Position numbers and translations under genes: made by a program. The notes under the pieces were generated by a model, which searched no databases, had not been told where the DNA came from, and was given only the letters and a program-made list of their open reading frames with translations. From Candidatus Rifleibacteriota bacterium (GTDB lineage Bacteria; Muiribacteriota; Ozemobacteria; Ozemobacterales; Ozemobacteraceae): a stretch of DNA of 64,000 bases. Shown in pieces: positions 25,198 to 51,523 of the stretch (its first letter is position 1; the number at the start of each line of letters is the position of its first letter). The DNA lies in assembly GCA_012517355.1 (NCBI GenBank), contig JAAYVD010000134.1, forward strand, positions 62,001-126,000, given 5' to 3'.

Positions 25198-25211
25198 CGG
25201 CCGGGTCCCTC

Positions 25212-25880: not shown

Positions 25881-25978
25881 GTGGTCAGACCAATCCTTTC
25901 TAAGTTCGGGAGTTCCGGAGGACCTGGCTTGAGGCTGATTCGTGGGGAAATCTCCCGTGACAGGGGTGGGGGGAGCGG

Positions 25979-27406: not shown

Positions 27407-27598
27407 TAAAACTTCCTCTCGGTAGGGAGAACCAGCCAGACCGTTGGCAGGGAAAACTCTCACTTGGGAAAGACGCCAGATTTTCCCCTCTTCTTCATTT
27501 TACCAAATGGAATGGGGCCAGTACGTTGAGGGCCTTCCCTCGCGTGGCCCACCTGGCAGGCCGGTGGTGGCCGGCTCCCCGTCGGGAGGAAGCGGGGT

Positions 27599-37018: not shown

Positions 37019-37957
37019 TCAGGGGATCGGGGCAAGCGAAACGGTCACCCGCAGGCTGCCCTGGTTGTTGCCAAGGTGGACATTCGTGAGGCCGTTGAGT
37101 GCGCAGAAGGAGCAAAGCCCATTGGGCGTGTAACCTTCGGGCCCATCGAAGCTGTCGTTGCACATGAACTGCAGTTCCCCGCCTTCGGCCGCGGTGAAGG
37201 TCCCCCCGCGACCCACCAGGAAGCCTGAACCCATGCCGATGCGGGCGCACAGCGACCCCGCCGGGGCGGTCGGACAGGGCACCGGGGGATTGGGATGGTT
37301 GGGCTGGGGGTCGGTCACCACTTTGCAGAGCCGCCCGAGGCCCTCCGGTCCCGCCATGGCGACATCGAAATGCGAAGACCACTGGCCAGTGGCCCGCACG
37401 AAGAACTTCTGGCCGGCCGCCACCTGGAAACCACTTTTCACCCAGGGAAGGTTGGCCGGGACATCGAGGGTGACCGATGGGAACAGCACCTCCTGGGCCG
37501 TGTGATCGGTGTCACGCCCAGGGGTCTGGCAGGGGGTGACCAGCGGGAACCCCTGCCAGACACCCGTCAGGTCGACCAGGACCCCGGGCAACCCCACCTG
37601 GACCGGCAGGCTCGGGGGGCCGGGAAGCGGGGGATAGGCGGGGTTGGGGGTGCCATCGGGGAGCCGCTCGTAGATCCACCACCGGTCGGTGAGCGGCCGC
37701 CCCGCGAGAGGGGCCCGGATCATTTCACTGATGGATCCCGCCTTCCCCACCTCGAGATCGACGACGACGCCACCCGTGGCGAGGGTGGTGGTCTGGGCCA
37801 GGGCCAGACCGGCCAGGCACCAGCTCCAGGCAACCAACCCGCCCAGGACCCATCGAAGCGTCATCAGTCGCGAAGCCGGCCAAAGTGGTGCCCGGCGAAC
37901 CTCCCTGCGGCCAGGGCTGCCGCCACCGCCCGATCGTCCGGTCCCTTGCCTGCTCAT
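37019..37957 (-). CDS. secreted protein with PA-IL (LecA)-like lectin-fold domain
   Basis: 312 residues; GGAGG seven bases before the ATG at 37957. A hydrophobic segment (WVLGGLVAWSWCLAGLALA) is a signal peptide behind a basic N-terminus of about 40 residues. The C-terminal 130 residues follow the PA-IL lectin pattern: FFVRATGQWSSHF, AGPEGLG, LCARIGMGSGFLVGRGGTF, GGELQFMCNDSFDG, LGNNQGSLRVTVSL. Compared with LecA, the calcium-site residues seem partly conserved (the ND and NNxGS segments). Sugar binding is inferred. Last gene of the ECF-sigma/pseudopilin operon. Confidence 0.7.
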   Translation of the reverse strand: MSRQGTGRSGGGGSPGRREVRRAPLWPASRLMTLRWVLGGLVAWSWCLAGLALAQTTTLATGGVVVDLEVGKAGSISEMIRAPLAGRPLTDRWWIYERLPDGTPNPAYPPLPGPPSLPVQVGLPGVLVDLTGVWQGFPLVTPCQTPGRDTDHTAQEVLFPSVTLDVPANLPWVKSGFQVAAGQKFFVRATGQWSSHFDVAMAGPEGLGRLCKVVTDPQPNHPNPPVPCPTAPAGSLCARIGMGSGFLVGRGGTFTAAEGGELQFMCNDSFDGPEGYTPNGLCSFCALNGLTNVHLGNNQGSLRVTVSLAPIP

Positions 37958-38074
37958 TGGGGTGCCTCCTTCCTCGACCATCCGCGTCATCAGGATCCCG
38001 CCTGTCTCCCGGCCTCTGGCCGGGCCTGCGAGGAAAGGCGACGGAACCTGCCCGCACCCGCCCTCGCTTCCCCT

Positions 38075-38581
38075 TCAGGGGGGGGAAACCCCTGCCAGTT
38101 TCAGGGTGACGGTTTCACCGCGGGCCAAGGCCCCGGCGAAATCGAACCGACGGGTGTTCCCGCCTTCGGTGCGGGTCAGGGTGGTCGGCCCGGCCTGCTG
38201 CCAGGTGACCTCCGACTCCGCCAGGGTGAGGGCCGGGGTCATGGTGACGAGCTTCAGGTCGAGCCGCTGGGTCCCGATCACCCGCACTTCTTTGGCCTGC
38301 TCGAGATCGTGCCGCAAGGTGGATAGGGCCTGCCCCGTCACCATCCAGGCGGTGGTCGACCGGTCCTGGGCCGCGCCCTGGAAGACGACGGCCTGGATGA
38401 CCCGATGCACGACGGCGAGCAGGATGGCCAGCACCAGGCTGGCCACCAGCAACTCAACAAAGGTCAGGCCCCGACGGCCCCGGTGCTGGGCACGAAGCGG
38501 AGGATTCGCGCCGCCCACCGTGGCGGCAAAGGGAAAGCCCTTCCGACGCCGTGTCGGTCTTGGTCGCTCAGTTCTGCTCAT
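38075..38581 (-). CDS. prepilin-like protein with repeat-encoded leader
   Basis: 168 residues. The ATG at 38581 lies 14 bases inside the upstream prepilin gene. Residues 1-38 form the leader, most of it encoded by repeat copy R11 read antisense (TRRRKGFPFAATVGGANPPLR). The prepilin signal RRG|LTFVELLVASLVLAILLAVV then follows, with Glu at +5. The body (STLRHDLEQAKEVRVIGTQRL, RRFDFAGALARGETVTLKL) is GspJ-like. A leader of 38 residues exceeds the usual 5-30. Confidence 0.85.
   Translation of the reverse strand: MSRTERPRPTRRRKGFPFAATVGGANPPLRAQHRGRRGLTFVELLVASLVLAILLAVVHRVIQAVVFQGAAQDRSTTAWMVTGQALSTLRHDLEQAKEVRVIGTQRLDLKLVTMTPALTLAESEVTWQQAGPTTLTRTEGGNTRRFDFAGALARGETVTLKLAGVSPP
38485..38563 (-). 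repeat. dispersed multi-hairpin repeat copy R11
   Basis: Reverse orientation relative to most copies. Read on the minus strand: CCGACACGGCGTCGG, a GGGCTTTCCCTTTGCCGCCAC arm, a GTGGGCGGCGCGAA segment and GGATTCGCGCC. It lies wholly inside the leader-coding part of the prepilin gene 38075-38581 and keeps the frame. Borders are approximate. Confidence 0.7.
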
Positions 38582-39074
38582 CGATCAGCCTGAACCCTCT
38601 CGCTTCGTAGACCACCGGCCCGGGCAACCCGGCCGGCACCTGCTTTCCTTTCCCTGCCACGGCCCCCGGGCCGGTGTCGCACACCCTGACGTGGGTTTCC
38701 AACACCCGGCCCCAGGGGTTGAGGAACCGCTCGCCCGGCAGGACCGGCTGGTTGATCAGGCGGATCCGGGTGATCCGGGTCAGGCCCGGCGGCGCCGCCG
38801 GCACCCCCAAGGTCGGAAGGGAGAGAGGAACCGGCAGGTCGCCGTCGGCCAGGTCGGCGTCCAGGGCCCCCAGCAGATCCTGGGTGCGGGCGTTGGCCAA
38901 CCCATCGATCATCGAAGAGGTCATGCAGATGGCCTGGGTCAGTTCCTTGCTGACCGTGGTGATCTTGCGCGAATCCCCCAGCAACCGGAAAACCGGGATC
39001 ATGCCCAGCCCCAGCACGCCGAACGCGATGATGATCTCCAGGAGGGTCACCCCGCCCCGCCAACGATGGTCCAT
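38568..39074 (-). CDS. prepilin-like protein (GspI-like)
   Basis: 168 residues from the ATG at 39074, with GAGGAGG eleven bases upstream. MDHRWRGG| precedes VTLLEIIIAFGVLGLGMIPVF, with Glu at +5. KELTQAICMTSSMIDGLANAR is the segment typical of GspI-like minor pseudopilins. The body ends with RGFRLIDEQN. It follows the PilX/GspK-like gene and overlaps the next prepilin gene. Confidence 0.85.
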   Translation of the reverse strand: MDHRWRGGVTLLEIIIAFGVLGLGMIPVFRLLGDSRKITTVSKELTQAICMTSSMIDGLANARTQDLLGALDADLADGDLPVPLSLPTLGVPAAPPGLTRITRIRLINQPVLPGERFLNPWGRVLETHVRVCDTGPGAVAGKGKQVPAGLPGPVVYEARGFRLIDEQN

Positions 39075-39106
39075 TCTTCTGGTATCCTCCTCGCAGGTCA
39101 CAGGCC

Positions 39107-41254
39107 TCACCGCAGCTTGGTCTGGAAGACCAGGGGCTGGTGCTCGAGCATCACCCGGAAGGACCGGCGGTATGCCTCCGCGTCGCCCCAATCGTGGTCG
39201 GGATCGTAGCGGATCTGCTTGGGGGCGGTCGTGGCCAGGCCCGCCAAATCGAGGCGGGCCACCGCCACCAGGCCCGCCACCTGCACCCCACCGCCCCCGC
39301 CCAGGCGCAGGGTGCCTTGGGGGGCCAGCAGGGCGGCCTGCAGGGGTTCGGCCGTTTCCACCAGCAGGTCGCCATCGAGACTGGCCAGGACGATGCGGTT
39401 GGCACGGGCGTCAGGCACGGCCGGCGGGGGTTGGGGGGCGATGCCGGCAACGATCCGCACCAGCCCCTCGGCGACGATGCCGACGCCGCCCAGGGCCACC
39501 TGGTTGAAATCGGCGGTCCAGGTGAAGGGCCCCTTGATGTGGTAGAACCCGGCCGCCGCCTTGCCCTCCTGCTGCAGATCCTTCAGGTGCTTGAACAGTT
39601 CCGGCCCGGTGGCGAACTCCCGGCCGCACCGGCGCCGCAACAACGGCCCCAGGTTCGGCAGCACCTGCTGCACCTCCCCTTCGAACACGGTGGCCCCGTC
39701 ACGGATCAACGTCAGGGGCCCGTCGAGCACCAGGCCCGCCGGACTGCCAGGCGTGAATTTCAGCACCCGGTTGAGGCGGGCCGAACCCGCCTGGAAGGCC
39801 GGTTGCATCGCCCGCTGGCCGGTGCCGGCCGGTGCCGACTGGTCGAAGAAGAAGGCCAGCCCTTCGTTGAGGGGACTGACCACCAGGCTGCACATCCCCT
39901 CGCGGTAGCCCAGCCACTCGTTCCCGCAGGCCGCCAGCAACGCGTCCCGGGCGGCGGCCTGGACCCCAGGCCAGGGGCTGGCCTGGAACGCCGGGGCGGT
40001 CAGATACGGCAGGGCGGTGGCACTGGCCGGCCCGTCGGGGTCCGCGGGCGGCACCGGCTTGCGACGGATGCCACGTTCCAAGAGGTAGCTGCGCCAGACC
40101 TTGCCGAACACCAGGGTCGGGGACGGCGCGGCGTTCGTACCCATCAGCCGCAGCAGGGAACTCTTCTGCGTGTTGCGGGGTTCCAGGACCATCAGCTCCC
40201 GACGAGCCGAGGTCTTGGTTTCCTCATACAACCCGGTCAGGCAGGCATACCGCTGGTGCGTCTCCCACAGCCGCATGCTCTGGCCACTTCCGGGTGGGGT
40301 GAACTCACGGCCGAACGCGAAGGACCCGGCCTCGATCTCGCTGACGAACAGCCGGAATTCGTGCAACAGGAAGTTCTCCCCGGCCGGGACGTCTCCCGGG
40401 GCCAGGCCGAGGGTCAGAGACTGCGGATCCCGGTCGGGCGGGGTGCCGAGGAAGACCCAGCCCTGGCGGTCGAGGAAGGGGCCGGGATCGGCCGCCAGCT
40501 TGGGCCGGTCGGCCGGGGTGACGGGGGGGCCGTTCACCAGGACCAGGGGTTGGATCCCGGTGGTGGCCTGGAAACGAGGCGGGATCAGCCCGGAAGCCAG
40601 CTTTCCGGGAATGACGTTCAGGGGCCCCGCGAGATCGCCCGCCAGCAGGGTGAACCGGCCCACCACAGGAACCTGGAGATGGACGGTCCGGAATTCGAAG
40701 ACCGAGACCACCCGCCGCTCCACCTCCCGGTAGCCGGCCTGGACATCCACCACGAAGCGCCCCCGCCGTTCCCGGGCGAGGTCCGGCAACCCCGGAATGC
40801 CGGGATCCTCCAACAAGGGGGAGGACCGTTCGATGCGGATGCGGACGTCGAGGTACAGGTCCTTCGCGTAGGGTTCGAGCCCCTCCGCCAGGGGGCTCCC
40901 ATCGAGGGGAAGGCGCATCTCGGCGGTCTCCTCGATCAGGCGGTCATCCTGGATGAAGGCGGCGGCGAACGGCTGCAGCGCGGGCGGCGCCTTGGCGTCC
41001 TTCGGGAAGGTCTCGGGGGCCGAGCTGTTGAGCCAGTCCACCCCGGCCCGCACGAACCGCGTTCCCTGCCTGGCCCCGAACTCGGCCGCCCGGAAAGCCA
41101 CCTCGGCCAGGCCGAGACGGAAGGTCTGCTGCCGCTGCTGCCGGGAATAGGAATGCAGGTAGAAGGCCACCAGCCCGATGCAGACCAGCAGCAGCAGGAC
41201 GGCGAGCAGTGCCACCCCTCGCCCGTTATCCTTCCCCCTGGTCCGTTGTTTCAT
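39107..41254 (-). CDS. large PilX/GspK-like protein
   Basis: 715 residues. MKQRTRGKDNGRG precedes VALLAVLLLLVCIGLVAFYLHSY, then RLGLAEVAFRAAEFGARQGTRF, the membrane helix and amphipathic helix of PilX/GspK-type proteins. In type II systems GspK caps the pseudopilus tip together with GspI and GspJ, and here two prepilin genes follow directly. The ectodomain is large and beta-rich, with repeated aliphatic strands (IVAEGLVRIVAGI, GTLRLGGGGGVQVAGLVAVARLDLAGL) resembling a beta-helix near the C-terminus. No catalytic motif seen. Confidence 0.75.
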   Translation of the reverse strand: MKQRTRGKDNGRGVALLAVLLLLVCIGLVAFYLHSYSRQQRQQTFRLGLAEVAFRAAEFGARQGTRFVRAGVDWLNSSAPETFPKDAKAPPALQPFAAAFIQDDRLIEETAEMRLPLDGSPLAEGLEPYAKDLYLDVRIRIERSSPLLEDPGIPGLPDLARERRGRFVVDVQAGYREVERRVVSVFEFRTVHLQVPVVGRFTLLAGDLAGPLNVIPGKLASGLIPPRFQATTGIQPLVLVNGPPVTPADRPKLAADPGPFLDRQGWVFLGTPPDRDPQSLTLGLAPGDVPAGENFLLHEFRLFVSEIEAGSFAFGREFTPPGSGQSMRLWETHQRYACLTGLYEETKTSARRELMVLEPRNTQKSSLLRLMGTNAAPSPTLVFGKVWRSYLLERGIRRKPVPPADPDGPASATALPYLTAPAFQASPWPGVQAAARDALLAACGNEWLGYREGMCSLVVSPLNEGLAFFFDQSAPAGTGQRAMQPAFQAGSARLNRVLKFTPGSPAGLVLDGPLTLIRDGATVFEGEVQQVLPNLGPLLRRRCGREFATGPELFKHLKDLQQEGKAAAGFYHIKGPFTWTADFNQVALGGVGIVAEGLVRIVAGIAPQPPPAVPDARANRIVLASLDGDLLVETAEPLQAALLAPQGTLRLGGGGGVQVAGLVAVARLDLAGLATTAPKQIRYDPDHDWGDAEAYRRSFRVMLEHQPLVFQTKLR

Positions 41255-41287
41255 GCCTTCCTTCCCGTCCAGAGCCAGCCTTCCAGC

Positions 41288-42823
41288 TCAGCGGTACATG
41301 TTCGACAGCCGTTTGCGCAGATCGCTTTCCTGGCGCTTCTTGGAAAAGCGGACGGTCTGCGGGGTGGTTTCCGAAAAAGCGGAGGGGCCCGAACCTCCGG
41401 GGGGTGAACCCGCCTCTCCCGAACGCGGCTGGTTGACCCAGGAGCTGGAGGCCGGCAAGGATCCCGTGGCCAGGACGGCGGCGGCCGAGGCCGGGTGGGC
41501 CAGCTCCGCCCCCAAGGCCTTCTGCTCGATGATCCGTTCCAGCACGACGTCGGCCCTGGCCCTGGCGTCCTCGGCCAACGGGCCCTTCCGGAAGAACACC
41601 TGGAGGTACAGGCCCTGCGCCTCCTCCAGATAGTCGCGGCGCTCGTAGAGCTGGGCCAACTGGAAGGTGAGATACTCGTCCTTGGGGCGTCGATCGAGCG
41701 CCAGTCGCACCAGGGGGATCGCCGTCTCCTCGCGGCCGATCAGGCACAGGCAGGTGACCAGGCGGTCCAGGACACCGGTGTTGAGCGGGTCGCGCTGGTA
41801 CAGCACCAGGAACTGGTCGGCTGCCGCCTCCAGTTTCTCGGCCGCGAACAGGCTCTCGGCAAGCAGGGTGCGGGCGGCGTCGTTGTCAGGATCCTGATCC
41901 GTCACCGGGCCGAGCAGGCGGATCACCTGGAGATGGTGGCCCCGACGGAACCGGAGATGGGCTTCCCGCAACCGGGGCAACGGGGACCGGCCACACCGTT
42001 CCTGGAAGGTGTCGACGACCCGCTCGGCGGCGGGCCAGTCCTCGGTCGCCATCAGCACCTCGGCCAAGCCGCCGAAGGGCTCGGGATCATCGGGGAAATC
42101 GCGGGTGAGGGCCTCGAACGCCTGCCGGGCCTTGGCGTATTCCCCGAGATCGAAATGCCGGAAGGCCTGGCGCAGGCGGGAACCCCGTTCATCACCCGGG
42201 GGGGACCTCTTCAGGAGATGGAGCCCCAAGGCCAGCAACGGGGCGGCCCGCGGCACCTGCCGCAACCGCTCGAACTCCCGGGCGGCCGCCGCCGCATCCC
42301 CGCCGGCCAGGGCGAACTCGCCCTTGACGAAGGTCAGCACGAACGACCGGGGGTGCCGTTCCCGGATCGGATCGAGCAGGCGGTGGCCCTCGTCCACCCG
42401 GCCCACCGACCGTCGGATCAGGCTGAGGAAGAACGGCGCCTTGGGATCTTGGGTCCCTCCGTCCACGGCGGCCTGAAAGTGCCGGCGGGCCGGCTCCAGG
42501 TCACGGGTGCGGGCTTCTTCGCCCAACACGGGCTCCTCCAGCAGCAGGAACTTGTAATACTCGTTCACCCCGCGCCGGAAATCCTCTTTTTGCAGGGCTT
42601 CCATGGCCCGCCGGTACCGTTGGCCGGGGGGGGCCGCCGGCGCCGCCACGGCTCCCAGCCAGGCGGCCGCCAGGAACAGGCAGCCGAGACGGCCCCAACG
42701 CAGGGCCGGGCCGATGCCGGGCGCCCGGCCCGGCAGACGGACGGTCGGGGATGGCGGAGGGGGGAGAGGGCCGACCGGTCGTGCGGCCGGGGCGTGATCA
42801 CGAGGCCATCCTGGCCGGGCCAT
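41288..42823 (-). CDS. TPR-repeat protein with signal anchor
   Basis: 511 residues from the ATG at 42823, four bases after the FecR gene stop. A hydrophobic segment (GRLGCLFLAAAWLGAVAAPAAP) near residues 42-63 is a signal peptide or anchor. TPR units follow, for example FRHFDLGEYAKARQAFEALTRD, FGGLAEVLMATEDWPAAERVV and LTFQLAQLYERRDYLEEAQGL. The C-terminal 90 residues are Ser/Pro-rich and end in KKRQESDLRKRLSNMYR. Likely a periplasmic scaffold for the pseudopilin assembly encoded by its neighbours. Confidence 0.8.
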   Translation of the reverse strand: MARPGWPRDHAPAARPVGPLPPPPSPTVRLPGRAPGIGPALRWGRLGCLFLAAAWLGAVAAPAAPPGQRYRRAMEALQKEDFRRGVNEYYKFLLLEEPVLGEEARTRDLEPARRHFQAAVDGGTQDPKAPFFLSLIRRSVGRVDEGHRLLDPIRERHPRSFVLTFVKGEFALAGGDAAAAAREFERLRQVPRAAPLLALGLHLLKRSPPGDERGSRLRQAFRHFDLGEYAKARQAFEALTRDFPDDPEPFGGLAEVLMATEDWPAAERVVDTFQERCGRSPLPRLREAHLRFRRGHHLQVIRLLGPVTDQDPDNDAARTLLAESLFAAEKLEAAADQFLVLYQRDPLNTGVLDRLVTCLCLIGREETAIPLVRLALDRRPKDEYLTFQLAQLYERRDYLEEAQGLYLQVFFRKGPLAEDARARADVVLERIIEQKALGAELAHPASAAAVLATGSLPASSSWVNQPRSGEAGSPPGGSGPSAFSETTPQTVRFSKKRQESDLRKRLSNMYR

Positions 42824-42827
42824 CGTC

Positions 42828-44429
42828 TCAGAAGTCGAGCACATCGTCGAGCCCGGCATCGGCCGTCCCTCCCGTCTCCGTGGGCTGGCCCGTGGTCGGG
42901 AGGACAGGATCCCGGACCTCATCCGTCGCTCCTGGCTGCGTCCCTGAAACCGGGCCCGCCGCGGGGTCCCCGGCCGTTGGCCCGGAGGCCCGTCCCGAAG
43001 CTTCCCTCCCGGCGGGCGGCGCCGCCGTCTCTCCCGGGGGAGCCGGTTGATGGAAGGCCGTCCAGGAAACGGGCGCCAGGAGCGGGTTTCGTTCGACCTT
43101 CGCGGGTCCGCTCACCGCCGCCGTTTCGCCGGGAGACAACGGCTCGGTGCCATCGGGAAGGCCGATGGTTCCGGAATGGCACCGGACCAGCAGCGTCTCC
43201 CCGTCCCGGGTCAGTTCGCCAACGCTTTTCCGGCCGATCAGGACATTCCCGGGCCCGGTGATCTTGAGCGGGAATGGACTGCCCGCATGACGAATGAGAG
43301 CGGTTCCCGCTGCGAGGTCCAGGCCGAAGGCCTGCACCCGGACCGAGGCCCCGGGGGCAAGCCGGACCATCGAACCGCAAGCCAGCCGCAGGTCGGCGGT
43401 TCCGCTTCCCGCCGCGGTGACCAGGCCTTCGACCGGGATCCTGGCCCCCGGGACCAGCCCGGCCAGGTCATCGGCGGTCGCCAGGGCGGCCTGGCCGGCT
43501 TCGAGAGTCACCAGGCCGGTGGGAAAGGCCTCGTCGAATCCGAGCGGGCCGGCCGCCCCTTCGGGATCGGAGACGACCGGGAGGTCGCCCCAGGGGAGGA
43601 GATCCGCCTCTCGCAACCGCCGGGGACCACCCTTGCCGCCGGGCAATTCGAGGACCTCGCCCGCCTTCATCAGGATGGGACCGGCCGCAGGTGCCGTCGG
43701 GACGACCTCCAGTTCCCCTTGCAGCAAAGCGATGCGCAGGGAGCCCGAAGCCACGGCCAGGTCGAACATGGTCCCCCGCACCGCGAGGACGGCCAACGGC
43801 GTCTGGATGACGAACCGGCTTCCCACCTTGCGGAACAGCAGGCGGACGCCACCGCGGGTCAGGGCCAGCCCGTGTTCGAGGATCTGGCCGGCCGTTTCGC
43901 CCTGGCAACGGAGGTAGCCGCGGTCGGGAAAGACGAGCAGGGCCTGGCCGGCAGCGGCGACCGCGAAGGCATCACCGACCTGGAGATCGGCCGGAGGGGT
44001 GGGCGTCACGGAGGTTCCGGTCAGCCTCACACCAGCGGCAGCCAGGGCGGGGCCGGCCGCCGGCCCACCGATCAGGCTCGCCGCCAGGGCCAGCACGAGC
44101 ACCACCCCCAGGCCGGCCGGCCACGCCGGACCAACCGGCACGGAGTCGGGAGGGATTCCCTCTTGCCGGCCCGGATGGCGGCGCGCAGCACCCGTTTGGC
44201 GAGAGGGAAGGGGACCGACCGGAAGGATGTCGGCAGGGCATCCCCCTTGCCGCGGCGGACGGGGGAGCGAAGCGTGTGTCCCGGCTCCCGGCTTGCATCT
44301 CCCGGGCCCGAGGTCGGCCCACCCTTCCTGCCGCGGCGGCAGGCCGAGCGAAACACCCGTTTCCCCTGGGGCAAAAGGGTCAGCCGGAACGGTTCGCCGT
44401 TGCGGTTTTCCCGCGGCCAGTCGGTCCAT
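42828..44429 (-). CDS. FecR-domain membrane protein with repeat-encoded N-terminus and C-terminal LDDVL motif
   Basis: 533 residues. AAGGAGG six bases before the ATG at 44429 makes the start secure. Residues 1-105 are encoded by three antisense repeat copies (GETGVSLGLPPRQEGWADLG, RQTGAARRHPGRQEGIPPDS). A membrane helix (LGVVLVLALAASLIGGPAAGPALA) follows at about 107-130. The periplasmic part has a FecR domain (VIQTPLAVLAVRGTMFDLAVA, RIALLQGELEVV) and a second FecR-like region (PLKITGPGNVLIGRKSVGEL). The C-terminus ends ADAGLDDVLDF, sharing LDDVL with the secreted proteins at 874 and 49806. Possibly a sensor for pseudopilus assembly. Confidence 0.85.
   Translation of the reverse strand: MDRLAAGKPQRRTVPADPFAPGETGVSLGLPPRQEGWADLGPGRCKPGAGTHASLPRPPRQGGCPADILPVGPLPSRQTGAARRHPGRQEGIPPDSVPVGPAWPAGLGVVLVLALAASLIGGPAAGPALAAAGVRLTGTSVTPTPPADLQVGDAFAVAAAGQALLVFPDRGYLRCQGETAGQILEHGLALTRGGVRLLFRKVGSRFVIQTPLAVLAVRGTMFDLAVASGSLRIALLQGELEVVPTAPAAGPILMKAGEVLELPGGKGGPRRLREADLLPWGDLPVVSDPEGAAGPLGFDEAFPTGLVTLEAGQAALATADDLAGLVPGARIPVEGLVTAAGSGTADLRLACGSMVRLAPGASVRVQAFGLDLAAGTALIRHAGSPFPLKITGPGNVLIGRKSVGELTRDGETLLVRCHSGTIGLPDGTEPLSPGETAAVSGPAKVERNPLLAPVSWTAFHQPAPPGETAAPPAGREASGRASGPTAGDPAAGPVSGTQPGATDEVRDPVLPTTGQPTETGGTADAGLDDVLDF
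44139..44395 (+). repeat. three tandem copies of the dispersed multi-hairpin repeat (R12-R14)
   Basis: R12 about 44139-44212, R13 about 44214-44300, R14 about 44305-44395. R14 keeps GCGAAAC-ACCC-GTTTCCC and CTGCCGCGGCGGCAGG, and R13 keeps CCGACC...GTCGG. The copies run opposite to the FecR gene, which reads all three in frame without a stop. They are more diverged than R6-R8. Confidence 0.7.
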
Positions 44430-44441
44430 GGTCTCCCTCCT

Positions 44442-46259
44442 TCAGCTGCAGCAACCGGAATACTTGGCCCCGGTGGAATCGGGTGGGCCGGGCCTCTGCG
44501 GGGTGTCGTTCTGGTCTTGCGGGAGGCGCCACCCACTGGGGAAGGGTTGCAGGCCACCCTCGTCGTAGTGCTTGCGGAAGTAATCGAGCAGGTAATCGAC
44601 CCGCAGCCGGATCGGCGGATCGACCGTGTCGTTCTCCAGCGTGTAGGGGACCTCGTCGGGATACGGACCGTCGATCGTGATCGGGCCGTACCAGCCTTTG
44701 CGCTCGGGCCACCACCAGTAGCCGGCCACGCTCTGGGGATCGTTCTTCAGCTTGTCCTTGTAGACGTCGTCCTCCCACGGGGTTCCACCGGCGAGGGTGA
44801 CGGTGATCCGTTTGCGGGCGTTCTGCAGGAAGGTCAGGTCGTGGATCAGCTGCTTGGTGGCCGCCTCCGGGTTGTGGGGCAACAGCCGGAGATACGCTTC
44901 GATACTCTGTACCAGGAACACTTCGGGCTTGGGGTTGCGGTTGGCATCGCGCGTGGATACCTTGTACAACTCGTCGAGAACCGACTGATGCCCGGAATGG
45001 GTCAGCACCTGCACGATCTCGGCGCGCGGCTCGGTGGGCCGGGTGCCGAGGTTGAACTTGCAGCCTTTCAGAAAGGCGGGAATGTCGTCCTTCGTCATCT
45101 GGAAGCCTCGCGGATGCCAGGTCTGGAACAGGTCGAGGATGAAATCGTTGCCCTGCGCGTCGTAACTGCCGGCCGGCTGGCTGCCCAGCCCATCGACCAG
45201 GCTCTGCACCGTCTGGCGATCGACCTTGTCGGGGAGCGGGCTACCGGCGATGGCACCCGGCAGCTTCTCGCGGACCAGGCGGTTGCGCGAGGCGTTGGCC
45301 ACCAGGTCGCGGCTTTCCCTGGCCATCTCCTGCCCCACCTCCCGCACCGTCGCCAGCTCGGTCAGCTTCTTCCCGCGCAGCGACCGCAGGTCGACCTTCT
45401 TCACCTGGACCAGGCGCTTCAGGGTCTCCGACGGCACCGACGACCCGCTCTCCTCCTTGATGGTGGCGAACACGTCGCCCACCGTCAGCTTGTCGCCCAC
45501 CCCCGCTTTGACCGAGGTGACGGTTCCGAAGAAGGGGGGCTTGAGGTCCCAGCTCGCGGTGATCTGGTATCCCGCCCGCGGGGTGCCGGGCGTCAGGTGG
45601 GCGATGATCTTGTTGGGGTCGACCCGGTCGCCCACTTTGATGCTGACGGTGTCGACGATGAAGTTGGTCTCCTCCTCGCCATCCTGTGACCAGGCCTTCT
45701 CGATGGTCACCACCATTTCGCCTTTTGTACCAGCTGCCTGGCCCATGGTGGGGGCATCGGTGCTGTTGGAATTGAGATACGGGGAAGGGCTCATGATGAA
45801 CTTGCCGTAGACCATGGCCTCGCTCTTCGTCAGGGGGTCTTCGCCGATGCTGTAGACCTTGATGTGGTCGAGCAGATCGGCCTTTTCCATGTTCTGGTAC
45901 AAATCCGATTTCCGCACATCGACGCCCATCTGGCCGAACTCGTCGCAGACCACGGTGATCTTGCCGTTGCCGGGGCCGAACGGTTCGAGCACCTCGGTAT
46001 GCGAATTGGGCCGCTGCACCTTGGCGGGGGGATTCCCCGGCGGCTGGTACCACCGGTCGCGACGCAGCTTTTCCAGGGTCCAGCTGATGCCGGCATAGGC
46101 GAGGTATTCCGCCTTCTTTTCGCCGATCAGCCGGTTGACCTGCCTGACCTCAGACCCCGAATATCGCAACACCCCCATGACGATGGAGGCCAGCCCTGCC
46201 AGCAGGACCAGGACCAGGGGAACCGCGGCACCCAACCGTGAGCGTCGTCTCTGGCACAT
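44442..46259 (-). CDS. PilX-like protein with lipoyl/biotinyl-like barrel segment
   Basis: 605 residues. GGAGG nine bases before the ATG at 46259; a GTG at 46283 overlapping the upstream stop is the alternative. MCQRRRSRLGAAVPLVLVLL is the start of a PilX-type membrane helix, followed by EKKAEYLAYAGISWTLEKLRR. Around residues 200-270 are two half-barrel signatures, SIKVGDRVDPNKIIAHL and GTVTSVKAGVGDKLTVGDVF, like those of lipoyl/biotinyl-type hairpins in envelope adaptor proteins. No lysine in the usual MKM context is present, so it is unlikely to be modified. The C-terminus ends GAKYSGCCS. Probably a tip-associated subunit. Confidence 0.75.
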   Translation of the reverse strand: MCQRRRSRLGAAVPLVLVLLAGLASIVMGVLRYSGSEVRQVNRLIGEKKAEYLAYAGISWTLEKLRRDRWYQPPGNPPAKVQRPNSHTEVLEPFGPGNGKITVVCDEFGQMGVDVRKSDLYQNMEKADLLDHIKVYSIGEDPLTKSEAMVYGKFIMSPSPYLNSNSTDAPTMGQAAGTKGEMVVTIEKAWSQDGEEETNFIVDTVSIKVGDRVDPNKIIAHLTPGTPRAGYQITASWDLKPPFFGTVTSVKAGVGDKLTVGDVFATIKEESGSSVPSETLKRLVQVKKVDLRSLRGKKLTELATVREVGQEMARESRDLVANASRNRLVREKLPGAIAGSPLPDKVDRQTVQSLVDGLGSQPAGSYDAQGNDFILDLFQTWHPRGFQMTKDDIPAFLKGCKFNLGTRPTEPRAEIVQVLTHSGHQSVLDELYKVSTRDANRNPKPEVFLVQSIEAYLRLLPHNPEAATKQLIHDLTFLQNARKRITVTLAGGTPWEDDVYKDKLKNDPQSVAGYWWWPERKGWYGPITIDGPYPDEVPYTLENDTVDPPIRLRVDYLLDYFRKHYDEGGLQPFPSGWRLPQDQNDTPQRPGPPDSTGAKYSGCCS

Positions 46260-46279
46260 CGGAATGTTCCTCCCCGGAA

Positions 46280-46777
46280 TCACCGGATGATGTTCTTCAG
46301 GCTGATCCCATCGGTCAGCGAAAACTCGAACCCCTTGGCGTCGAGGATCCGGATCTTGAAGGACAGGTAGGTGTCCCCCTCCCGGACCACGGTGAACTCG
46401 ATCGATTTGCGGGCCAGAACCTGCAACGCATCGGGCTCGTTCTTCCGGGCCCGGTCGCAGTTCAGCATCACCAGTTGGCCTTTCGGATCCAGGAAGATGA
46501 CCGTCACCTCGTTTATCCGGTTCAGGAAGAACAACTGATGATGCGGTTGGCCATCGTCGGGAGGGAAGAGGACCTGGTTGCCGGCCGCCAACTTGTCGGT
46601 CAACGCCCGCGACGTGGAACGCAGATCATGGAAGATGTCGAGCCGGTGCATGCCGTCGACCGACTGCCGCATGCCGATGAATACCGAAAGGGTCATGGAC
46701 ATCAGGATGGCAAACACCACCACCCCGATGATCAGTTCGGTGACGGTGAAACCCGCTCTGCTGGCTGGTCTGTTCAC
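46280..46777 (-). CDS. prepilin-like protein
   Basis: 165 residues. The GTG at 46777 overlaps the TGA of the upstream prepilin gene (GTGA). The leader VNRPASRAG| is followed by FTVTELIIGVVVFAILMSMTL, with Glu at +5. HRLDIFHDLRSTSRALTDKLAAG and FFLNRINEVTVIFLD match the GspJ-like pattern. The continuous upstream frame belongs to a different reading of the preceding gene and is rejected. Confidence 0.85.
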   Translation of the reverse strand: MNRPASRAGFTVTELIIGVVVFAILMSMTLSVFIGMRQSVDGMHRLDIFHDLRSTSRALTDKLAAGNQVLFPPDDGQPHHQLFFLNRINEVTVIFLDPKGQLVMLNCDRARKNEPDALQVLARKSIEFTVVREGDTYLSFKIRILDAKGFEFSLTDGISLKNIIR

Positions 46778-47301
46778 ATGCACGTCCTGATCGTCTTCAG
46801 CTCGAACTCGTGTTTCTTGTCGAGCGCGTTGCCGGCCCCCCTGTTTCCCCACGCGAACCGCAGCCGGATCTCGAACAGGTTGGGGTTCCCCCCGAACGGG
46901 CGGGTCGTCAGGAACAACCGGAAGGCGGGCATGTATTTCACCGACGACTCGACCCCGTAGCCGAGCATGTTCTGCACGGCCTGTTGGCTGCCGGGATCGC
47001 CCAGGATCAGGTCGGTGACGTCCTCGTCGACCATCGCCTTGGGCAGCCGGCCGGCGTCGATCTCGCTCTCGATCAGGTTGACCGCGTTCTCGGCGATGTT
47101 GATGGCCACCGCGTAATCGCGGATCATCTTCTGCTGACCGACGCCGATCTCCGTGTACAGGCGGTACAGCGGGACGAAGACCAGCACGAAGATCACCGCT
47201 CCGAGCAACGCCTCGAAGAGGCTGAACCCACCTCGCCGCCCCGGGCGGAAGCCCCGACCGCGCCCCGCCTGGGCACCTTCCCACGCCACCCGGCTGCTCA
47301 T
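46774..47301 (-). CDS. prepilin-like protein (GspI-like)
   Basis: 175 residues from the ATG at 47301 (MSSRVAWEG). The signal GRRG|GFSLFEALLGAVIFVLVFVPL has Glu at +5, and KMIRDYAVAINIAENAVNLIESE is GspI-like. The frame remains open for 78 codons upstream through repeat R15, to a GTG at 47535 that has no ribosome binding site. By analogy with 18869 and 38581, a longer repeat-encoded leader is possible but not supported here. The binding site for 47301 is only AAAGG at long spacing. Confidence 0.8.
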   Translation of the reverse strand: MSSRVAWEGAQAGRGRGFRPGRRGGFSLFEALLGAVIFVLVFVPLYRLYTEIGVGQQKMIRDYAVAINIAENAVNLIESEIDAGRLPKAMVDEDVTDLILGDPGSQQAVQNMLGYGVESSVKYMPAFRLFLTTRPFGGNPNLFEIRLRFAWGNRGAGNALDKKHEFELKTIRTCM

Positions 47302-47340
47302 CCCACCACCGCCTTTCCCTGCTCTGGGCTTGGAGCCCGA

Positions 47341-47416
47341 TGCCGACCGCCAGGATGTCGCCCACACCCCCTTGCCGCCGCGGAGGGCGGCGCGAACCTT
47401 CTGGTTCGCCCACGGC
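47341..47416 (+). repeat. dispersed multi-hairpin repeat copy R15 with compensatory hairpin
   Basis: It contains GCCGACCGCCAGGATGTCG, TTGCCGCCGCGGAGGGCGGC and GCGAACC-TTCT-GGTTCGC. The last hairpin differs from the consensus GCGAAAC/GTTTCGC in both arms, yet pairs perfectly, which is evidence that pairing is maintained. It lies between the FecR gene and the first prepilin gene of the operon. Confidence 0.8.
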
Positions 47417-47581
47417 ACGAAAACCATCCCCGCGGCGCCATTCCCGGAGGAGAATCCGGGAAACCTTCTCCCGTCAGCCCACCCCTCGGGGCCAGGCTCA
47501 TCCGGCGCCAACCCGACACGCAAGGAAACGCACACCGGCCAGGTGTTGTCTCATCGTTTTTCCAGGTGCGGCGAGGTTCGC

Positions 47582-48817
47582 TCATTCGACCCTCAGCAGG
47601 TCATCCAGGTTCCCGTCCTGGTCCTTGCCGCCGGGAGGGGCGGGATCGGGACCGCCGGGAGAGGCGGCAGGGGTGACGGCCGGGTCGGGCGGCCCCACCG
47701 GTTCCGGCTCCGCCGGATCGGGGCCGACGACGGGACCCGCATCGACCGGGCCGGGGTCCCCGCCGGTGGTCGGGCGGGCCGGCGCCGGCGGGGCAGCGGC
47801 CAGGCGGGGGTCGAGATCGCCGGTCTCGACGGGCCGCACGGCCAGGCCCTGGCGGGTGGCGATCACGATCTGGCCCGCCCGCAAATCGACGCCGGCGACG
47901 CCTGACGCGACCGCATCGACACGCAAGGCCCCTTCGGTCAGGACCACCTTCGCTTCACCTTCCCGCAGATGGACCCGGAAGTCGGTTCCCCGGATGCCGA
48001 GCATGACCGTCGGGGTCTCGATCACAAACTGCCTGCCCTGTTTGCGCATCGAGAAGCGGGTATCCCCGCGAGCCAGGGTCAGGCCGCCGGCGCCGATGGT
48101 GCCACGGGTTCCGGGAAGGAGCCGGACCTCGCTGCCGTCGGGGTAGGACAACAGGCCCCGGCCGCCGTCGGCAACCGCGAAGGCGGTGCCGGGCACCAGG
48201 GTGGCGGGGGCAGCGGGGGTGGTGCCTTCCCCGGTCAGGGTGGGCGCGGGGACGTCAGCCACGGGGGCAGCGGCCGACCGCCCGGCGCCTGGCAGGACGG
48301 CCTGGGGCGACCCCGGCGGCACCGGCGGCTGGAGGTCGGGGGTGGAACGCCCGCTCCAGGCGAGCAGGAGGATCAGCACGACCGCCATTCCTCCGGCCAC
48401 CGCCAGGCGCTGGCCGGAAAAGGCCGCCAGCAGGGCGGGAAGCCAGGTGGGACCTGTCCCGACCGACACGCGGTCGGCCAGCCCCTCTTGCCGCCCTGGG
48501 GGGCGGCGCGAAACGTCCGTTCCGCGCCCCGCCGGGGGGGCGTCCCGCGCCACGGGCGCCGGAAGCGGCTGGCCGGAGGTCACCGCCGGGGAGGGTTGTG
48601 AGGACCGGGCGAGGCGGGCGAGACAGCCCGCTTCGATGCGCTCCCGGATGTCCGGGGCTGGTTCCAGGGACAGGAACCCCTCGTGCCATCGCTGCCGTGC
48701 CGCCCAGACCTGCCGGCATCCCTCGCACTGTTCCAGGTGAACGGCAAGATCGGCTGGCATTGCCGCCTGGAGGGCCTCATCATCCTGGATCCAGCGGGAC
48801 AAGCGATCACATGTCAT
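47582..48817 (-). CDS. zinc-finger anti-sigma-like / FecR-domain membrane protein
   Basis: 411 residues. GGAGG nine bases before the ATG at 48817, 11 bases inside the sigma-factor gene. Residues 1-70 carry the HxxxCxxC zinc-finger anti-sigma motif (LAVHLEQCEGC). Residues about 92-122 are encoded by repeat R16 (DVSRRPPGRQEGLADRVSVG). A membrane helix follows (LAVAGGMAVVLILLLAW, about 138-154). The periplasmic FecR domain has VIETPTVMLGIRGTDFRVHL and AKVVLTEGALRVD. The C-terminus is DGNLDDLLRVE. It should hold the ECF sigma factor and release it on a periplasmic signal, presumably linked to the pseudopilus genes it is transcribed with. Confidence 0.9.
   Translation of the reverse strand: MTCDRLSRWIQDDEALQAAMPADLAVHLEQCEGCRQVWAARQRWHEGFLSLEPAPDIRERIEAGCLARLARSSQPSPAVTSGQPLPAPVARDAPPAGRGTDVSRRPPGRQEGLADRVSVGTGPTWLPALLAAFSGQRLAVAGGMAVVLILLLAWSGRSTPDLQPPVPPGSPQAVLPGAGRSAAAPVADVPAPTLTGEGTTPAAPATLVPGTAFAVADGGRGLLSYPDGSEVRLLPGTRGTIGAGGLTLARGDTRFSMRKQGRQFVIETPTVMLGIRGTDFRVHLREGEAKVVLTEGALRVDAVASGVAGVDLRAGQIVIATRQGLAVRPVETGDLDPRLAAAPPAPARPTTGGDPGPVDAGPVVGPDPAEPEPVGPPDPAVTPAASPGGPDPAPPGGKDQDGNLDDLLRVE
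48459..48540 (+). repeat. dispersed multi-hairpin repeat copy R16 inside a coding region
   Basis: Near-consensus: CCGACCGACACGCGGTCGG, TTGCCGCCCTGGGGGGCGGC, GCGAAAC-GTCC-GTTCCGC, then CCCCGCCGGGG. It sits wholly inside the anti-sigma/FecR gene, well away from either end, between the zinc-finger and membrane-helix codons. The reading frame is retained. Confidence 0.9.
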
Positions 48818-49379
48818 GGCCTGTCACCTCCTTCCGGATGCGTTGGAGCACCAGGGAAACCATGTTGCGCAGTGACCCTTCCGAGCGCCCGGTCGCCGTG
48901 GCGATCTCGGCGTAGCTCATCCGGTCGATGATGCGCAACATCATGACCTGCCGCTCGATCGGGGAGAGTCCCCGCAAGACGTCGGGGACCTCCCCGAGGG
49001 ATTCTTCGGCCTCGACCGCCGGGGCTGCCCGCCCGGCCTCCTCGTCCACGGTCCGGACCCGCCGGGAGCGGGCGCGGATCTCGTCGATGCACCGGTGACG
49101 CGCGATCTGGGCGATCCAGGCCGCCAGGTGGGTGCCGGTGAACCGTGGCAACGCCTGGTAGACATTCCAGAAGACCTCCTGGGCCAGGTCCTCGACCGGG
49201 GCGTCCTGGCCGAGTGACAGCCGGATCTGCCGGCAGACGAGGCCGGTGAATCGCTGCACCAGCCGCCGGAAGGCTGTCGTGTCCTGCCGCTGCAGGTCGC
49301 GGACCAAATCTTCCAGAGATTTGCCAGCCCAGACTTCGACCGGTTCATGCGCGTTCCGTTCCCTCGGGAGGCTAGCCAT
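48807..49379 (-). CDS. ECF-family RNA polymerase sigma factor
   Basis: 190 residues. Region 2: FTGLVCRQIRLSLGQDAPVE followed by DLAQEVFWNVYQALPRF. Region 4: LSPIERQVMMLRIIDRMSYA then EIATATGRSEGSLRNMVSLV. The two regions are separated by an Ala/Glu-rich linker and there is no region 3, which defines the ECF class. It overlaps its zinc-finger/FecR partner gene by 11 bases and heads the 12-kb minus-strand operon ending at 37019. No Shine-Dalgarno precedes the ATG, and a putative promoter ends seven bases upstream, so the mRNA may be leaderless. Confidence 0.93.
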   Translation of the reverse strand: MASLPRERNAHEPVEVWAGKSLEDLVRDLQRQDTTAFRRLVQRFTGLVCRQIRLSLGQDAPVEDLAQEVFWNVYQALPRFTGTHLAAWIAQIARHRCIDEIRARSRRVRTVDEEAGRAAPAVEAEESLGEVPDVLRGLSPIERQVMMLRIIDRMSYAEIATATGRSEGSLRNMVSLVLQRIRKEVTGHDM

Positions 49380-49416: not shown

Positions 49417-49805
49417 TCCACCCGCCGGTGTCACAGGAATTCGGAGAAAGCGGCAGGAAGGGCTTCCGGGGGCCTTCTCCGCCATGTGGCAAGGAAGCCG
49501 ACCGGTTTGCGGCGGAAGGCTGGGACTTCCAGGCCGTCTCCTTCACCCCTTCGCTCCCAGGCGAAGACTTCCGGTCTTTCCCCAGTGACACCCATGAAAC
49601 CCTGTCTCCATGGAGGATCGCCTCCGAAGCCCTGCGAAGAAGGTCCACCACATCATTCGTTGTCGGGGAACGATTGGTTCTCTCCCAGGCGCTGCCCTTC
49701 CCCAACCACATTTTTGTGACACCGGCCATCGGGAGATCGTTTATCATTCTGTGAAGGGATCTTCCCCCAAACATGGGTGAAAACAGTCGAAAGACGGAGG
49801 GAACC
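49417..49805. other. 389-bp divergent intergenic region
   Basis: Between the ECF-sigma promoter and the secreted-protein gene. No gene or clear repeat copy is seen. TATCAT at 49742-49747 could be a -10 for the plus-strand gene, but no -35 at proper spacing is visible. Confidence 0.35.
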
Positions 49806-50735
49806 ATGAACAATCGATGGCTGGTGGCGGTAGCAGCAACAGGCTGGCTGATCTTCCTGGGGGCCGGGTCAATCTTCGCGGCGCCGCTCGTGGTCGATGA
49901 ATCGTCGTCCGGCTGCACCCTGACCGGCAACTGGGCCGACAACCGCGGCCACAACGACGAAGGCAAGACCTTCTCGTCGGAGGGCCTGGTCGGTGGCGAC
50001 CAGCACTACACCAGCAGCCACGGCAAATACCGGCGGACCGGCAAGGAAACCGCCGTGTTCAAGGCCGACCTGAAGCCCGGAAAATACCGGGTCGAGATCA
50101 ACTGGCGCCGCAGCGAGAACCGGTCTTCGCGGGTGACCTGGGAAGTCCGCCACGTCGGGGGCAACACCAAGAAGACCATCAACCAGCGGGGCAGCAGTTC
50201 CGGTTTGTCCTGGTTTTCTCTCGGAACATACGAATTCGGCGAGACCGGTGGTGAGGTGGCCATGGTCGACGATGGCGGGCAGTCCGCCTCGGTCGATGCG
50301 GTCCGGTTCACCCCTTCCGACGAGCCTGTTTCCGACAACGACGCCACCCTCGACGACGTCCTCAACGGGGGCAACACCAAGAGCAATCCGGCCGGGGACG
50401 GTCCCAAGGCCCATGTCTTCACCAAGGACGGTTCCTTCAAGATCACCGCCTGTCTGATGACCCGCGGCCCGGCGAAACTGGTGGTGAAGAAGAAGGGCTC
50501 CGACGGCAAGGAAACGGTCTGGATGGAATGGGCCAGGGAGAACGACAAGGATCCTTCCCCCTGCAAGGTCGAGGGGAAGGAGATCCCCGAATCGATCTAC
50601 GAGCAGAACCCGGGCGACTTCTCGCCCAAGCCGGTCGAGCGGTCGCTCACCGGCAAGAAGGGCGAGTCGGTCATTCTGAGCCTGGAAGGCGATTTCGGGG
50701 GCGAGAACCCGACGCTCGAGGCGACCGAGGAGTGA
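49806..50735 (+). CDS. secreted golvesin-like domain protein with DATLDDVL motif
   Basis: 309 residues. GGAGGG four bases before the ATG at 49806, then a signal peptide (WLVAVAATGWLIFLGAGSIFA). Residues about 25-160 resemble the golvesin-type domain found at the end of secreted polysaccharide-active proteins: LVVDESSSGCTLTGNWADN, YRVEINWRRSEN, SLGTYEFGETGGEVAMVDDG, ASVDAVRFTPS. Then DNDATLDDVLNGG and a C-terminal domain homologous to that of 874-1854. The motif is shared with the FecR membrane proteins of the divergent operon, which suggests a common partner. Confidence 0.8.
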   Translation: MNNRWLVAVAATGWLIFLGAGSIFAAPLVVDESSSGCTLTGNWADNRGHNDEGKTFSSEGLVGGDQHYTSSHGKYRRTGKETAVFKADLKPGKYRVEINWRRSENRSSRVTWEVRHVGGNTKKTINQRGSSSGLSWFSLGTYEFGETGGEVAMVDDGGQSASVDAVRFTPSDEPVSDNDATLDDVLNGGNTKSNPAGDGPKAHVFTKDGSFKITACLMTRGPAKLVVKKKGSDGKETVWMEWARENDKDPSPCKVEGKEIPESIYEQNPGDFSPKPVERSLTGKKGESVILSLEGDFGGENPTLEATEE

Positions 50736-50900
50736 CGCGGACGGCGGGCTGACCGGCGGTGAAGGCGGCCCCGGCCGGGGCCGCTGTTTCCCTGTCGCGG
50801 ATGGGTTTGCCGGGTGGCGGGCCCTTCATCCTCAGGCAACGCGGCTCCCTGGCCGGCCGGAGGGTTTGCGCCTTCGGCCGGCCGGGGCTATCATGGAGCC

Positions 50901-51434
50901 ATGCCACACGGGATCGTCCATCGAAGGTCCGGCCGGACCAGAGACTCCCTTGGGAAGGGATTGACGCTGATCGAAGCCCTCATCGTGGTGGTTTTGGGAG
51001 CCCTCCTCCTTCTGGTGACCTGGCGGGTCCTTTCGGCGGTTTCCCGGGAGGGTCAGCGGGAAAGTCACCGGGCCCAGGTGACCCAATTGGGCGATCTGGT
51101 CTGGATGACCCTCCGCGATGACCTGCGGACGGCAACCGAGGTGGCGACCGGGCCGGCCAGCCTCGTCATCACCTCGCTGGACCCGGATGCCGCCGAGGGG
51201 GTGGCCGGGAAGACGGTCACCTGGACCTGGGAGAGAGGCCTCTTCACCCGATCCCCAGCCAACGAGCCCGGACGGAAATTCGATTTTCGGCCCAGCCTGC
51301 CGAAGGACGCCCCCTGGGAGGCCACGGTCACCGCCGCCCCGGGCGGGGGGTTCCTCCTGGATCTGAAGATCGGGGGGCCGCCGGGCGTCCTTCTTTATTC
51401 CCGGCAGGAGAGGATCTCCGCCGGAATTCGATAG
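50901..51434 (+). CDS. prepilin-like protein, paralogue of 2260-2760
   Basis: 177 residues from the ATG at 50901 (GGAG only two bases upstream). The leader ends LGKG|, followed by LTLIEALIVVVLGALLLLVTW with Glu at +5. The body parallels the protein at 2260-2760 throughout (MTLRDDLRTATEVATGPASL, VTWTWERGLF, LLYSRQERIS). Both copies neighbour a DATLDDVL secreted protein, so a two-gene unit seems to have been duplicated and rearranged. Confidence 0.85.
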   Translation: MPHGIVHRRSGRTRDSLGKGLTLIEALIVVVLGALLLLVTWRVLSAVSREGQRESHRAQVTQLGDLVWMTLRDDLRTATEVATGPASLVITSLDPDAAEGVAGKTVTWTWERGLFTRSPANEPGRKFDFRPSLPKDAPWEATVTAAPGGGFLLDLKIGGPPGVLLYSRQERISAGIR

Positions 51435-51435
51435 G

Positions 51436-51523
51436 TGCTGACCGACCCGATATCGGAAGATCTCTCCTCTGCCACCACGGAAAGCAGCGCGCAACGCCCG
51501 TTTCGAGCATCACCAAGGAGGCC
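51436..51523 (+). repeat. dispersed multi-hairpin repeat copy R17
   Basis: It starts directly after the prepilin stop codon: TGACCGACCCGATATCGG, TCTGCCACCACGGAAAGCAG, GCGCAAC-GCCC-GTTTCGAGC. Moderately diverged. The rest of the gap to 51690 holds no recognisable gene. Confidence 0.7.

Follow-up and report, generated by a model that had tools for sequence, protein, structure and literature searches.

In FecI-FecR-FecA (FecIRA) systems, an extracytoplasmic function (ECF) sigma factor and a membrane regulator with a periplasmic FecR domain (PF04773) are encoded in one operon. Class I zinc-associated anti-sigma (ZAS) factors have an N-terminal H-x3-C-x2-C motif and a single hydrophobic segment, and their genes overlap that of the ECF sigma factor. 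The GspI-GspJ-GspK and PilV-PilW-PilX sets consist of two prepilins with a glutamate at position 5 (E5) and a larger, K-like subunit that lacks Glu5. Verru_Chthon cassettes are multi-copy sets of pilin-like proteins of unknown function. The features of the first three are shared by a locus in a 64,000-nucleotide stretch of DNA, referred to here as the window, from a Riflebacteria metagenome-assembled genome (MAG) congeneric with Candidatus Ozemobacter sibiricus (BY5) (assembly GCA_012517355.1, contig JAAYVD010000134.1).

The locus occupies positions 37019-49379 of the window, on the minus strand, and from its sequence it is best described as a pair made of an ECF sigma factor and an H-x3-C-x2-C-FecR anti-sigma factor, together with two GspK-GspI-GspJ-like minor-pseudopilin triads. 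The minus-strand operon is real, and the initial annotation, which had proposed a FecR-type anti-sigma factor wired to an orphan and perhaps self-sensing pseudopilus, is partly confirmed as a whole. The arrangement suggests that the cells of this bacterium may sense the state of their surface fibers and adjust gene expression to match.

Linkage of Sigma Factors, FecR Domains and Prepilins

The genome contains 137 prepilin, 31 sigma factor and 23 FecR matches. Using a linkage distance of 5 kb and an expectation based on uniform placement, which makes the p-values approximate, 14 of the 30 sigma factors tested lie near a prepilin match where 3.6 would be expected (p ~3e-6), as do 14 of the 23 FecR matches (2.8 expected, p ~4e-8). 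Sigma factors also lie near FecR matches (11/30 vs. 0.9 expected). As a positive yardstick, ATPases of the T2SSE family are found near a prepilin in 9/31 cases, with 3.7 expected.

The link between sigma factors and prepilins was also found, among the prepilin matches listed, in O. sibiricus (6/26 vs. 2.2 expected, p 0.02) and in Candidatus Rifleibacterium amylolyticum CH46 (7/20 vs. 2.15 expected, p 0.004). A further set of 27 loci from other genomes was picked by the presence of a PilX-like gene and not by FecR; nine of these have a FecR domain within 5 kb of that gene, compared to 0.9 expected, or 1.7 with the FecR density doubled. Statistically, the association between sigma factors, FecR domains and pseudopilins exceeds chance.

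There are four TonB plug domains in the genome, none of them within 5 kb of any of the 23 FecR matches, and a coupling of the FecR genes to TonB was rejected on this ground. The idea that the FecR-type anti-sigma factor is wired to pseudopilins instead of a TonB receptor is thereby upheld at the level of gene neighborhood, in this genome and in its relatives. Because a TonB receptor gene was looked for next to the sigma/FecR genes and not found there, the locus is regarded as a variant of cell-surface signaling and not as a member of the FecIRA family.

The Sigma Factor, the Anti-Sigma Factor and the Second FecR Protein

The ECF sigma factor, the zinc-finger/FecR protein, a second FecR protein (FecR2) and a tetratricopeptide repeat (TPR) protein were all called correctly in the initial annotation (Table 1). 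In a tree of sigma factors, the one in the window clusters (support 92/91) with those of two related loci, L037 in MAG G005 and L038 in CH46. Its gene and that of the anti-sigma factor share an 11-nt overlap at the anti-sigma start codon. The anti-sigma protein consists of the N-terminal H-x3-C-x2-C motif, one hydrophobic segment and a C-terminal (periplasmic) FecR domain, and residues H27, C31 and C34 are invariant across ten anti-sigma proteins, which come from this genome and from two relatives. From this motif and the coupling to the sigma gene, the protein is predicted to be an anti-sigma factor of the zinc-finger (ZAS) type. PF04773 alone was found in a Pfam scan of the protein, from which DUF4880 and DUF4974, two other domains of FecR proteins, were absent, and a PDB sequence search returned no match.

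FecR2 is the best match in the genome to the FecR region of the anti-sigma factor, with 38% identity. A short LDDVL/LDDLL motif occurs at the C-terminus of both proteins and internally in the golvesin-like proteins described below. Homologs of the TPR protein adjoin cassettes in four other loci (L034, L035, L075 and L059).

Two Minor-Pseudopilin Triads

The pseudopilin genes form two triads of a K-, an I- and a J-like subunit (K-I-J), pp1-pp2-K1 and K2-pp3-pp4. The two plus two prepilins that had been annotated were all recovered through their prepilin motifs. Both K1 and K2 start with a pilin-type helix that lacks Glu5, like that of GspK.

K1 had been described as PilX-like with a lipoyl-like barrel, and this holds. 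At approximately residues 189-286, a barrel of the biotinyl/lipoyl type matches TIGR01348 (4e-6) and a lipoyl domain in the PDB (7b9k, 2e-4), and Foldseek relates it to biotinyl/lipoyl carrier domains with target template modeling (TM) scores of 0.74-0.88 (0.88 for 5gua). K1 also has a helical insert and a C-terminal tail, DTPQxPGPPDxTGAxYxGxSS, that is conserved in homologs (26-38% identity) as DTPQxPGPPDxxGAxYxGxSS. The AlphaFold2 (AF2) model has a helix at residues 20-75 and a mean predicted local distance difference test (pLDDT) score of 52.5; of this low-confidence model, nothing beyond the barrel and the long helix was used. The match to GspK (NF037980) has an E-value of 0.003 over residues 18-80 (17.1 bits, with a cut-off of 130), and there was no Pfam PilX_N or T2SSK match.

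K2 had likewise been called PilX/GspK-like, which agrees with its N-terminal helix (RG-VALLAVLLLL), to which the signal is confined, and with its homologs in L043, a second CH46 locus (7e-43), in L068 (5e-14) and in L037 and L038 (20-23% identity). It has no domain match, and a PDB sequence search gave none either.

Homologs of pp1 are found at the same position in L037, L038, L031, L043, L044 and others, with E-values down to 4e-29, while those of pp2 adjoin a PilX-like gene in 11 further loci. The pp3 homolog in L043 (14416-14877) lies beside that of K2. Of the two small subunits of L072, a paralogous cassette, one matches PilV/GspI and the other GspJ. pp2 and pp4 show a weak N-terminal match to TIGR02599, a family of the Verru_Chthon cassettes, with scores of 14.1 and 16.0 bits that miss the curated cut-off (256.5).

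The pseudopilus had been considered an orphan, with no ATPase, platform protein or secretin. Locally, this is correct for two of the components: there is no T2SSE or secretin match in the window, the platform protein being a family that was not searched for, and the locus fails as a complete type IV pilus or type II secretion locus. Genome-wide, the statement is misleading, as 32 T2SSE matches over the cut-off and eight secretins are found outside the window, and the term orphan is not supported. With such ATPases and secretins available from other loci, the cassette most simply uses shared assembly machinery. Given these genes and the 137 prepilin N-methylation matches, the type IV filament gene set of the genome is very large.

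Sigma-Linked Cassettes in the Genome and in Its Relatives

A census of the sigma genes in the genome and of their neighborhoods revealed 12 ECF sigma factors that lie within or next to K-I-J cassettes, with more than one gene order: C34 (in the window), C72, C61, C106, C10, C125, C114, C71, C178, C134, C96 and C131. Several of these sigma factors come with a membrane anti-sigma factor; in C114 and C71, there is no anti-sigma gene between the sigma gene and the cassette. The linked sigma factors do not form one clade, with 8 label changes on the sigma tree compared to 9.4 in shuffles, and at least three of the changes are forced by well-supported branches. Being spread over several lineages, they indicate that the pairing of sigma factor and cassette arose, or was kept, more than once. 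A single origin by duplication of one sigma-cassette unit is unsupported by the tree, in which many branches are weak. FecR lipoproteins without a sigma factor also adjoin a PilX-like gene, in L033, L036, L040, L046, L076 and L080.

The window itself holds a further minus-strand cassette with a FecR lipoprotein at 23330-27463, made up of a K-like gene (25979-27463), the lipoprotein gene (25212-25982), a prepilin motif near 25100 and a prepilin (23330-24865). Two more prepilin clusters are located at 138-2760 and 19866-21397. The former surrounds a secreted protein that resembles the golvesin-like protein encoded at 49773 and adjoins an ankyrin-repeat protein.

In the relatives, the modules are conserved as neighbors, but their order and strand are not, so that synteny is modular. 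The cassette in L038 and L037 has the order GspK-like, HEAT, I, J, small secreted protein, HEAT, I, J, K1, and in L043 the K1 triad lies beside homologs of K2, pp3 and the golvesin-like gene. A search of relatives for the same gene order had been suggested as a check, and it bears out the modules as neighbors. A single, strictly conserved operon is not supported: in CH46 and MAG G005, the sigma/anti-sigma pair and the pseudopilin genes are convergent. Directly upstream of this pair is a gene for a CHASE2-SpoIIE phosphatase (L037, 12778-14703; L038, 13026-14921), and L037 also has a gene for a small STAS-like protein (205-555). These genes suggest a second signaling layer beside the pseudopilin cassette of the relatives.

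Proposed Mechanism and Alternatives

That the sigma/FecR proteins are functionally coupled with the pseudopilins in some form is considered likely. The current thinking on how this might work is that the periplasmic FecR domain reads the minor-pseudopilin complex and frees the sigma factor, a proposal that is held tentatively, its chances being slightly below even. Like GspI-J-K and PilV-W-X, the K-I-J subunits would form a priming or tip complex; they would use a type IV pilus or type II secretion machine encoded elsewhere in the genome. As long as the complex remains idle in the inner membrane, it would be bound in the periplasm by the FecR domain of the anti-sigma factor, either directly or through FecR2 attached to it. 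Once the complex has been consumed in a fiber or altered on contact, the zinc-finger domain would let go of the sigma factor, which would then transcribe the cassette. The minor pseudopilins would in this way fill the place that the TonB-dependent receptor has in classical FecIRA.

The FecR domain is thought to touch the pseudopilin complex because FecR lipoproteins adjoin pseudopilins in the absence of a sigma factor and because the closest match to the anti-sigma FecR region in the genome is FecR2. A FecR domain that served transcription control alone would not need to be placed beside pseudopilins without a sigma factor. A precedent for feedback of minor pilins on a regulator of their operon, although a different regulator, comes from Pseudomonas aeruginosa, where the minor pilins and PilY1 act through FimS-AlgR to inhibit the operon that encodes them (PMC5979040).

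A more far-reaching version is speculative and would probably not hold in full. In this version, each K-I-J cassette would have its own sigma/FecR-anti-sigma pair or FecR lipoprotein and the tip complex would be the transducer that replaces the TonB-dependent receptor, so that the multi-copy family would let the cell tell which of a dozen fiber tips had been deployed or had met its target.

Several observations weigh against sensing of the pseudopilins by FecR. Several ECF/zinc-finger-FecR pairs lack a dedicated pseudopilin cassette (L069 and the minus-strand pair in L068), and the FecR domain is therefore not exclusive to pseudopilins. Visual inspection of the regions upstream of the sigma genes revealed no ECF promoter motif common to them, so that self-regulation of the cassette stays hypothetical. 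In L037 and L038, the sigma/anti-sigma pair is on the other strand from the cassette, and co-transcription is not conserved. Finally, the AF2 model of K1 is of low confidence (pLDDT 52.5) and that of K2 is unusable (pLDDT 32).

A serious rival, possible although on balance not expected, is that the FecR anti-sigma factor reads some other envelope signal, such as stress, a polysaccharide or a surface ligand, and that the cassette is simply the regulon of the sigma factor, with no sensory role for the pseudopilins. The operon-like arrangement of sigma factor, anti-sigma factor and cassette in the window, L035, L065, L068 and L072 fits ordinary self-regulated ECF operons. Pairs without a cassette, such as that in L069, also speak for this reading. 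However, if FecR read an unrelated signal, there would be no need for sigma-less FecR lipoproteins next to the same cassettes, nor for FecR2, which duplicates the FecR domain of the anti-sigma factor inside the operon.

It is unlikely that FecR is instead a structural or scaffold domain of the pseudopilus base or tip, for example one that binds the envelope, with the zinc-finger fusion merely anchoring a sigma factor whose targets, such as adhesins, lie elsewhere. FecR lipoproteins beside pseudopilins would suit such a role, and so would the golvesin-like secreted gene divergent from the sigma gene, but the linkage between sigma factors and prepilins is itself strong, and the invariance of the zinc-finger residues in ten anti-sigma factors points to active control of sigma. 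Chance neighborhood in a genome crowded with prepilin (137 matches) and ECF genes, about 12% of which lies within 5 kb of a prepilin match, is highly improbable and was rejected by the linkage tests, in which counts were about four- to five-fold over expectation (p 3e-6 and 4e-8) and the excess recurred for sigma factors in two further genomes and for FecR near the PilX-like gene in loci of other genomes.

Gene Inventory

All 11 minus-strand open reading frames (ORFs) are present at 37019-49379, with a third-position G+C content (GC3) of 0.78-0.89 and a gene-like codon-position composition, and ten of the 11 genes have a product of the claimed type (Table 1). The exception is the most downstream gene (37019-37990), 84 nt from pp4, whose product had been called LecA-like. 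This label falls away: no Pfam, NCBIfam or PDB match was found, in the PDB even at E<=10, nor any homolog among the loci compared. Identity with the lectin LecA (PA-IL) was rejected for lack of similarity in these databases, and a lectin role is not claimed.

The 11 genes had been described as overlapping or closely spaced. Most of them do overlap, but there are two gaps, one of ~280 nt between the anti-sigma gene and pp1, given that pp1 probably starts at 47301, and one of ~330 nt between K1 and the likely start of FecR2. Copies of an interspersed repeat occupy both gaps. A scan of the operon for promoters and terminators gave 1 and 9 sites, close to the shuffled expectation.

Table 1. Genes of the sigma/FecR/pseudopilin locus and of the adjoining divergent region. 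Positions are those of the window.
Feature	Position	Strand	Evidence and remarks
ECF sigma factor, 190 aa	48807..49379	-	Sigma70_r2 1.1e-13, Sigma70_r4_2 1.6e-10, TIGR02937 4e-22
Zinc-finger anti-sigma factor, FecR domain	47582..48817	-	PF04773 2.7e-10, N-terminal HLEQCEGC
pp1, GspI/PilV-position minor pseudopilin (GFSLFEALLGAVIF)	46774..47301	-	Prepilin motif; start inferred at 47301
pp2, GspJ/PilW-position minor pseudopilin (GFTVTELIIGVVVF)	46280..46777	-	PF07963 1.9e-4, TIGR02532 7e-4
K1, PilX/GspK-position minor pseudopilin, 613 aa	44442..46283	-	TIGR01348 4e-6, NF037980 GspK 0.003
FecR2, secreted, FecR domain	42828..44111	-	PF04773 2.9e-8; ORF to 44429, start uncertain, ~44.1 kb
TPR protein, apparent signal peptide	41288..42922	-	TPR_19 6e-17; start inferred inside ORF
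K2, second K-like minor pseudopilin, 715 aa	39107..41254	-	N-terminal helix and homologs
pp3, GspI/PilV-like minor pseudopilin (GVTLLEIIIAFGVL)	38568..39074	-	TIGR02523 PilV 7e-5
pp4, GspJ-position minor pseudopilin (GLTFVELLVASLVL)	38075..38581	-	PF07963 3.4e-5, TIGR02532 6e-4, gspJ 0.02
Secreted protein, earlier called LecA-like	37019..37990	-	No family match; operon membership uncertain
Secreted protein, Golvesin_C domain, divergent	49773..50735	+	PF25275 2.9e-14; probably part of the system
J-like prepilin downstream of golvesin-like gene	50814..51434	+	PF07963 6e-4

The system probably reaches beyond 49379 to include the last two genes in Table 1, since homologs of both occur in the equivalent cluster of a relative or at other sites of the window. 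Homologs of the golvesin-like gene flank the cassettes of L043 (6940-7806 and 11340-12095) and are also found at 874-1878 of the window, while the prepilin has a homolog at 2260-2760 (3.6e-32).

The interspersed repeat is G+C-rich and ~70 bp long. Copies lie at 44144-44380, 47353-47423, 48471-48538, 38480-38547, 51452-51521 and other sites in the window, which has 16 in all; 59 were counted in 588 kb of the same genome (some loci overlap), and none in 147 kb of DNA from relatives. One copy is in frame within the anti-sigma linker and another overlaps the pp4 leader.

Comparison with Known Systems

Compared to FecIRA, the regulator described here has a zinc-finger N-terminus and PF04773 as its sole Pfam domain, and its neighbor is a minor-pseudopilin cassette, with no TonB plug gene near FecR. 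If the proposed coupling is true, TonB receptors would be only one of two classes of FecR-domain partners. The regulator differs from class I ZAS factors in having a FecR domain as its C-terminal sensor and a set of pseudopilins as its genetic partner.

The triads are linked to the N-termini of PilV, GspI, GspJ and GspK through NCBIfam, but all of these matches are under the curated cut-offs and cover the N-terminal part only. K1 further differs from GspK and PilX by the inserted biotinyl/lipoyl-like barrel and the conserved C-terminal tail. If the model holds, minor pseudopilins would be signal transducers acting via ECF sigma factors, which would provide a testable role for the many minor-pseudopilin cassettes of this phylum that have no known function.

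Searches of the open-access literature, subscription papers being outside their scope, gave no description of FecR or ECF sigma factors linked to pseudopilins or minor pilins, and nothing relevant on Riflebacteria pili, Ozemobacter or Verru_Chthon cassettes. The components are known; the wiring between them and its multiplicity appear to be new.

A parallel in regulation is FimS-AlgR and the fimU-pilVWXY1Y2E operon of P. aeruginosa, with which the locus would share, as proposed here, a minor pilin operon that feeds back on its own regulator (PMC5979040). That system is a two-component system with one operon per genome, whereas the Riflebacteria genome has ECF/anti-sigma regulation and about a dozen cassettes. 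If the model is correct, the locus would be a second, independent case of a minor pilin operon whose regulator senses the encoded pilins.

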